Made by a program: the position numbers and the translations under genes | Part shown: positions 49,976 to 54,561 of the stretch, in pieces | How the letters are laid out: the number at the start of each line of letters is the position of its first letter | Numbering within the stretch: position 1 is the first letter of the stretch | Notes under the pieces: generated by a model | What the model was told of the DNA's origin: nothing | Seen by the model: the letters and a program-made list of their open reading frames with translations, nothing else | Databases searched by the model: none | Assembly: GCF_023169945.1 (NCBI RefSeq) | Contig: NZ_AP025591.1 | Coordinates: forward strand, 6,246,501 to 6,310,500 | Direction of reading: 5' to 3' | Length of the DNA: 64,000 nt | DNA from: Anaeromyxobacter oryzae | Lineage (GTDB): Bacteria; Myxococcota; Myxococcia; Myxococcales; Anaeromyxobacteraceae

Positions 49976-53026
<3,051 letters not shown>

Positions 53027-53084: not shown

Positions 53085-53498
53085 CTACCCGCCGCCCTTC
53101 TCCACCGCCTTCCCGGCGGCGACCCACCCGTCGATGCCCGCCTCCATCACGAACACGTTCTTCCAGCCGAGCTCGGCCGCCCGCCGGGCGGCCTGGTGGC
53201 TCGCGGTTCAATACGTGTTCTTGCAGTAGAAGACGAGGCGCGCGCCGCGGTCCGCGGGCAGGTCCTTCTCCGACAGTGACTTGTAGGACACGTGGACCGC
53301 GCCGGGAACGTGCGCGGCGTCGTACACGGGCTTTCCGTTCACATCCAGGACGTGGAACCCGGGTGCCCCGAGCTGGCGCTCGACCTCGTCGACCGACGCG
53401 AGCAAGAACGGCTCGCCGGCGCGCGCGGATGGAGCGAGAAACAGGGTCGCCGCGGCCCCGAGGGCGGCGGAGAGGCGAGCGAGGCGGACCGTGATCAC
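53085..53498 (-). CDS. periplasmic rhodanese-like protein with in-frame TGA, probable selenoprotein
   Basis: 137 residues if TGA is read as selenocysteine (U). The GTG at 53498 is chosen for the GGAGGAGG 8-10 bases upstream. Residues 1-27 are a signal peptide (ending PSARA-G), so the protein acts outside the cytoplasm. A rhodanese domain follows: [20 protein letters not shown], then the active-site loop [11 protein letters not shown]. The TGA (53210-53208) is codon 97, five residues after the Cys in YC. Related rhodaneses have a second Cys there (YCxNxxCxASHxAA). Translation after it gives [31 protein letters not shown] and a TAG at 53087-53085, a normal domain end. A nonsense mutation is the alternative, but the placement and intact downstream frame favour recoding. 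Confidence 0.75.
53175..53193 (-). promoter_or_regulatory. candidate bacterial SECIS hairpin
   Basis: Starting 15 nt after the TGA on the minus strand, GGCCGCCC (53193-53186), loop GGC (53185-53183) and GGGCGGCC (53182-53175) form a perfect 8-bp stem. The loop lies 23-25 nt downstream of the TGA and has G at its first two positions, matching the position and loop rule of bacterial SECIS elements read by SelB. High GC makes chance hairpins common, so this supports rather than proves recoding. Confidence 0.5.
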
Positions 53499-53631
53499 GA
53501 TGGAACCTCCTCCCTCCGTGTAATCCCGGGGGGTCCGCGCCGCACCGGCGGCGAGCTCGCCCCACGCGGGATCCGCGGGAGCGTCACGCCGCGGCGGTTC
53601 GAGAGGCCGATCGGGATTAGGATCCGGGCGC

Positions 53632-54561
53632 ATGGGACGGCGGGTGACGGTCTACGAGGTCGGACCGCGCGACGGGCTCCAGAACGAGGCGGCCGCGGTC
53701 GCGACGGGCGACAAGCTCGCGCTCGTGGCCGCCCTCGCCGGGGCCGGCCTGTCCCGCATCGAGGCGACGAGCTTCGTGTCGCCGCGATGGATCCCCCAGC
53801 TCGCCGATGGAGCCGACGTCGTCGCGGGCCTGCCCTCGGTGCCGGGCGTCTCGTACGTCGTCCTCGTCCCGAACGCGAAGGGTCTCGACCGGCTCGTGGA
53901 GGCGCTCGGGCGGGCGGGCGCGGGTCACCCGCCCGTCGCCGCGGCGGTGTTCCTCTCCGCCTCCGAGACGCACAACCGCAAGAACCTCAACCGGACGCCG
54001 GACGAGACGCTCCGCGACCTCGAGTCGCTCGTGCCCGCCGCGCGCGGGATGGGGCTCGACGTCCGCGGCTACGTCTCGACGGTGTGGGGCTGCCCGTACG
54101 AGGGCGCGGTGGACCCGGCGCGCGCCGCCTCGATCGTGGAGCGCCTCCTCGCGCTCGGGTGCCACCAGGTCTCGCTCGGGGACACGATCGGCGTCGGGAA
54201 CCCGGAACAGACCCGCCGGATCCTGGAGCGGCTGCTGCGGGTGGCCCGGCCGGACCAGCTCGCGCTCCACATGCACGACACCCGCGGGACCGCCCTCGCG
54301 AACGTGCTCGCCGGGCTCGACGCCGGGATCACCACCTTCGACGCATCGATCGGCGGGCTGGGCGGCTGCCCCTACGCGCCGGGCGCGTCCGGCAACCTCG
54401 CGACCGAGGATCTCGTCTACATGCTGCACGGGATGGGGTACGAGACCGGGATCGACTGGACGAAGCTCATCGCCGCGGGCGCGCTCGCGGAGAGGCTCGT
54501 CGGGCGCCGCCTGCCCGGGAAGGCGCTGCAGGCGGAGCTCGCGCGGGCGGAGGCTCGTTGA
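53632..54561 (+). CDS. hydroxymethylglutaryl-CoA lyase
   Basis: 309-residue HMG-CoA lyase splitting HMG-CoA into acetoacetate and acetyl-CoA, the last step of leucine breakdown. [45 protein letters not shown] and the catalytic Cys in [20 protein letters not shown] are seen. TAGGAT (53618-53623) lies 8 bases before the ATG. The gene is divergent from the rhodanese. It heads a four-gene CoA-ester operon. Confidence 0.92.

Follow-up and report, generated by a model that had tools for sequence, protein, structure and literature searches.

The gene on the minus strand at 53085..53498 of the window, by which we mean the whole 64-kb stretch of DNA that was analysed, is almost certainly a selenoprotein gene in which an in-frame TGA at codon 97 is read as selenocysteine (Sec), as judged from comparison with related sequences. 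The case for selenocysteine goes beyond chance because the TGA is conserved and because Sec and Cys genes differ in the stem that follows this codon, and not because of the hairpin in the window gene by itself. The initial annotation had described a Sec-containing rhodanese, and this reading is supported save for the corrections given below.

A rhodanese gene with an in-frame TGA

The coding sequence starts with a GTG at 53496-53498, ends with a TAG at 53085-53087 and, when the TGA is read as Sec, codes for 137 amino acids, of which residue 97 is the only U. The TGA (53208..53210, minus strand) is in a column that is TGA or Cys in relatives and it gives the motif U97-T-A-S100. It lies five codons past Cys92 (codon at 53223..53225, minus strand), with which the catalytic loop of rhodaneses begins; this residue is Cys in the relatives and follows the strand 87-91 in the structural model. 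The single TGA is at the second active-site position (CxxxxU), and the frame is open past it up to the TAG, as was noted initially. No strand was given in the initial annotation; the gene lies on the minus one, and its product matches PF00581 at 8.9e-16 (58.6 bits against a cut-off of 22.2). It had also been predicted that standard gene calling would truncate the gene, and the ordinary ORF list does end it at the TGA, the part before the TGA being a legal ORF alone.

An AGGAGG that by eye resembles a ribosome-binding site is found 7 nt 5' of the GTG (53506..53511, minus strand). Residues 1-27 (53418..53498, minus strand), which end in SARA, resemble a signal peptide by eye, as do the N-termini of the orthologues, and on this N-terminus the rhodanese is a putative exported protein. 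The neighbours are thiC (51632..53026, plus strand; PF01964, 2.7e-192), which is convergent, and an HMG-CoA-lyase-like gene (53632..54561, plus strand; PF00682, 1.1e-44), which is divergent. Scans of the 64-kb window with Rfam at gathering scores and for tRNAs gave no matches.

Conservation of the TGA among relatives

A rhodanese match with an internal TGA was found in all the genomes of the genus (9/9), and a rhodanese match of some kind in 22 of the 24 genomes of the family. The orthologue group covers 10 of these 24 genomes in four genera, and its 10 rows form one clade with TGA in 10/10. Five genomes, including that of the window, carry a second Sec rhodanese with TGA in the same column; in the genome of the window this second gene (G000:C1:1426525-1426887) reads FYCRGMGUSLSRSAAVAA around the Sec and has a hairpin with a GGTC loop 3' of the TGA. 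Of the 147 genomes of the class, at least 35 carry a match containing one TGA, which is at the codon-97 column in those examined at the sequence level. The Sec form is therefore not uncommon in myxobacteria, contrary to what had been suggested in the initial annotation.

When genome contigs were scanned with a pattern for the Sec-coded core, 71 matches were obtained in 69 stretches, and against the profile 57 of these scored at least 60 bits and 14 scored 8 bits or less. The 57 high scorers are from records labelled Myxococcota/Deltaproteobacteria, Thermodesulfobacteriota, Binatota, and Pseudomonadota, the majority being MAGs. In the phylum of the Pseudodesulfovibrio MAG that is described below, at least 66 of 395 sampled genomes match at 1e-20 and several of 29 loci examined carry Sec at the codon-97 column. 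A scan of genome contigs for close relatives with the read-through protein confirmed none; one of the patterns used had Cys in place of the Sec codon. A tblastn search against plasmids gave seven records with none covering 80% of the query.

The set of relatives was made from 170 rows with at least 60 bits, from which 52 duplicates and one row outside the motif filter were removed to leave 117. At the codon-97 column, where the filter allowed any residue, 75 of these 117 non-redundant relatives have TGA, the other 42 have Cys, and no further residue is seen; the sequence beyond it is conserved, which answers the alignment of homologues that had been called for. At the Cys92 position, where the filter allowed only C or U, Cys is present in 117/117. 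In the single row that the filter excluded, the Cys92 place and the Sec column are both Cys. In a tree of the 117 rows, built on 126 columns, which are few for that many rows, and with a bootstrap that had not settled, the Sec/Cys label switches 10 times and at least five of these switches are forced by well-supported branches.

Selenocysteine decoding machinery in the same genome

The genome that holds the window is a single contig of 6.72 Mb with a completeness of 100% and a contamination of 5.01%. A search for the Sec machinery had been proposed, and all four components were found in this genome above their cut-offs, namely, tRNA-Sec (76.9 bits, cut-off 47), which ARAGORN reports as tRNA-SeC with the anticodon tca, SelB (312 bits, cut-off 242), SelA (525 bits, cut-off 268), and SelD (382 bits, cut-off 125). 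At weak thresholds the controls match in many genomes, but of the 14 controls only five pass the cut-off for tRNA-Sec, two that for SelB, one that for SelA, and two that for SelD. The SelD gene (G000:C1:4449674-4450603) has one in-frame TGA, and SelD of this genome is probably itself a selenoprotein.

The hairpin that follows the TGA

The hairpin GGCCGCCC-GGC-GGGCGGCC, which is the proposed bacterial SECIS element, is at 53175..53193 on the minus strand, 15-33 nt past the TGA. Its perfect 8-bp stem, its GGC loop and its place are as first described, but on its own it is weak evidence. Of 5000 synonymous recodings of the window gene, 9.3% form a stem of 8 bp or longer at that place and 21.6% one of 6 bp or longer, and the folding of the hairpin was equalled by 10 of 200 dinucleotide shuffles (z -1.89). 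Taken alone, the window hairpin is not exceptional and proves little. A test in which the loop was free over a wide range gave a mean z of -0.56 for 71 Sec genes; 49 genes were below 0, and in 3/71 the synonymous-null fraction was at most 0.05.

In the fixed-place test, which was devised after the sequences had been inspected, the loop had to start at nt 21-23 with a G within its first two bases, and the same rule was used for the Cys genes. A stem of at least 6 bp was found in 66/75 Sec genes but only in 2/42 Cys genes (Fisher 4e-20, which is overstated as the sequences are related). For the Sec genes, the observed 88% compares with a mean of 21.6% and a maximum of 37% in 500 synonymous sets, whereas for the Cys genes 4.8% was observed and 3.1% was expected. 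The exceptions among the 75 Sec genes are four that have a 2-bp stem at the fixed place but form another hairpin, of 8 bp, around a loop at nt 27, and five with a 5-bp stem.

In 58 distinct sequences 95.6% of the cells were paired, a percentage that is biased upward, the pair counts being those of the 61 of 75 Sec rows in which the best hairpin has its centre at nt 24. Two-sided changes were seen in five of the seven stem pairs, none of 500 shuffles reached as high a value, and slid partners paired at 21-58%. In four genes, GCC/GCG has been replaced jointly by GCT/GCA at the Ala codons +6 and +10, and both changes are silent. Where Ala is present at both sites, GCG at codon +6 was found in 0/71 Sec genes against 21/39 Cys genes, and Arg at +8 is CGT in 26/53 Sec cases and 0/13 Cys cases, compared with 7% of background Arg codons. 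Since the stem follows Sec, covaries, and goes with a codon bias at +6 and +8, the alignments point to selection acting on the RNA hairpin across the Sec family.

Fold, gene neighbourhood and possible role

The AlphaFold2 model was built from 38 sequences, which are the window protein and 37 of 43 domains from the pattern scan, and the same set was used in later searches. It is a rhodanese with a mean pLDDT of 90.7 that is high from about residue 31, and in it residues 92-98 form the loop that joins the strand 87-91 to the helix 99-109. The PDB matches of the model are mainly rhodaneses. Among them are the rhodanese domain of YgaP (5hbl, 2mrm) and the Wolinella polysulfide-sulfur transferase (1qxn), which shares the fold with a TMq of 0.63 at 19% identity. 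The Wolinella transferase is a periplasmic protein that works for polysulfide reductase, and neither it nor YgaP is known to contain Sec.

The thiC gene is beside the rhodanese gene in 8/10 orthologue loci, being convergent in seven and co-directional in one, and an HMG-CoA-lyase-like gene is beside it in 4/10; in one locus the contig ends right beside the gene. That thiC adjoins the gene was weighed as a functional clue and dropped because 7/8 of the adjoining loci are convergent. The neighbours of the window gene, thiC and HMG-CoA lyase, give no hint at the function. In a Pseudodesulfovibrio MAG, the Sec rhodanese gene is downstream of genes for a molybdopterin oxidoreductase, a 4Fe-4S protein, and a cytochrome-b-like (by eye) membrane protein, and it codes for three rhodanese domains with Sec in the first. 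This operon hints at polysulfide or thiosulfate reduction, in a phylum other than that of the window gene. Among 53 loci that were screened for recurrent neighbours, 10 share a cluster of ORFs near the Sec rhodanese, with an OPT transporter among its members (the MAG loci L115 and L130 are examples), this assignment having been made with Pfam at one locus of the cluster.

We propose that SelB, guided by the hairpin directly past the UGA, would insert Sec at codon 97 and that the product would be an exported single-domain rhodanese of 137 amino acids. Cys92 and Sec97 would flank the loop that holds the catalytic residue in rhodaneses. Cys92 would accept sulfane sulfur, with thiosulfate, polysulfide or a persulfide as the donor, and Sec97 would attack the Cys92 persulfide and hand the sulfur on; alternatively, sulfide would be released and a Cys92-Sec97 selenenylsulfide would be formed, which a periplasmic thiol system could reduce. 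A role in sulfane-sulfur redox or transfer is put forward tentatively because of the fold, the loop cysteine and the distant Pseudodesulfovibrio operon, and the exact cycle of Cys92 and Sec97 as drawn here is doubtful. A further and rather unlikely reading is that the exported C-xxxx-U rhodaneses of Myxococcota, Desulfobacterota, Binatota, and allied MAGs are a broad lineage that forms a sulfane-sulfur (or selenium) redox class, where Sec would resolve the persulfide of the loop and so make a reductase of a transferase.

The protein may instead be a selenoprotein that is not a sulfur enzyme, acting in the periplasm as a thiol-disulfide or peroxide-reducing couple, or handling selenite or tellurite, and we consider this possible without favouring it. 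The TsoB model, which describes a rhodanese/DsbD-like fusion with the motif UxxxxU, matches 38/38 members scanned at E <=0.001, and predicted selenoproteins are mostly thought to be redox proteins according to the available part of a 2026 review (PMC13188914). Also, the rhodanese gene extH adjoins a Geobacter porin gene that is needed for selenite reduction, and ExtH is given as 49 kDa, in the portion of PMC5877670 consulted. On the other hand, the loop cysteine is kept throughout, as would be expected for sulfur transfer, and the genes beside the Desulfobacterota form fit sulfur respiration. Frames of about 470-480 amino acids with Sec in a rhodanese domain were seen at three loci (L247, L253, and L254), and these are in the size range of ExtH by length alone.

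Readings without selenocysteine

It is very improbable that an amino acid other than Sec is inserted at the TGA or that the truncated product of 96 residues is the functional one with incidental read-through. Although the frame before the TGA could stand as an ORF, residues of the fold beyond the TGA are invariant (S100, A103, A104, G111, G121, and W125), the residue at the TGA is replaced by Cys only, and tRNA-Sec and SelB are present. The dN/dS of the window gene against its relative L010 is 0.72 before the TGA and 0.86 after it, which is not clearly below 1, and the values after the TGA in the five other pairs that gave one are 0.14-0.43; dS after the TGA is low because RNA constraint and base composition hold it down. 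This weak dN/dS, and the ease with which this protein reaches such a hairpin on synonymous recoding, would suit a pseudogene or a sequencing error, in which the TGA would truly end the protein early or would be a Cys codon that was misread, with the hairpin as a by-product of Ala and Arg codons in a G+C-rich genome, but this too is highly improbable and largely refuted already by the Sec/Cys pattern, because a TGA at the same codon recurs in separate genomes and assemblies of several families and phyla with Cys as the sole alternative, and because the stem tracks Sec and not Cys, at synonymous sites as well.

Relation to known rhodanese-like selenoproteins

Five forms of rhodanese-like selenoproteins are tabulated in the part of PMC13188914 that was available, and form 1 in its Table 1 is given as PF00581 with UxxS (WP_010941598.1) and is credited to Zhang and Gladyshev 2005. 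With its rhodanese domain and a Sec that precedes Ser by three residues, the window protein agrees with form 1 in its motif. It resembles TsoB (NF045694) in the five-residue step between the two reactive residues of the rhodanese part and scores 35.7 bits over profile positions 101-158 of 572, but it is without the DsbD-like part, has Cys for the first Sec, and is far under the 805-bit cut-off. Similarly, it matches rhodanese_LYCAU (NF041203, form 3), a rhodanese-related (seleno)protein, with 37.9 bits, but this is under the 115-bit cut-off and its motif is CxxxxU whereas CxU is listed. For the 38 members of the model set, the best E-values against these two NCBIfam Sec-rhodanese models were 5.8e-11 and 1.8e-18, with estimated scores well below the cut-offs. 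Since no NCBIfam model was found that fits the C-xxxx-U rhodaneses, their genes are probably truncated in public annotation.

The portion of PMC1794560 consulted lists 11 selenoproteins of A. dehalogenans, and a rhodanese is not among these. Sec sulfurtransferases are listed in the excerpts of two marine surveys (PMC1088965, PMC2398784), and those of a 2016 survey (PMC5029168) give counts of 24 and 25 for a 'sulfurtransferase homologous to a rhodanese-like protein'. No description of the window protein was found in the open-licence literature on selenoprotein rhodaneses of Anaeromyxobacter or Myxococcota. Rhodanese-like selenoproteins have been predicted before as a kind, to which the window gene adds a well-supported new member, and the lineage of Sec rhodaneses looks larger than the surveyed literature suggests. 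In that literature, as far as the consulted parts go, these proteins have so far been table entries without an assayed function. The Sec rhodaneses described here are widespread in myxobacteria and their relatives, have a clear RNA signal and include natural Sec/Cys pairs, which make it a testable question why selenium is used in a sulfurtransferase, and the family flags genes that standard ORF lists split.

Such pairs were seen at L089, L102, and L129 (and L227), where a Sec rhodanese gene is followed about 580 bases on by a Cys rhodanese gene on the same strand. Four loci of Thermodesulfobacteriota MAGs (L085, L112, L146, and L229) have tandem rhodaneses with Sec in two successive domains, and the tandem rhodanese at L137 has Sec in the first domain and Cys in the second. 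At L241, L245, and L249, a related Sec rhodanese has UPFT past the loop instead of UxxS and is followed by a Cys rhodanese domain.
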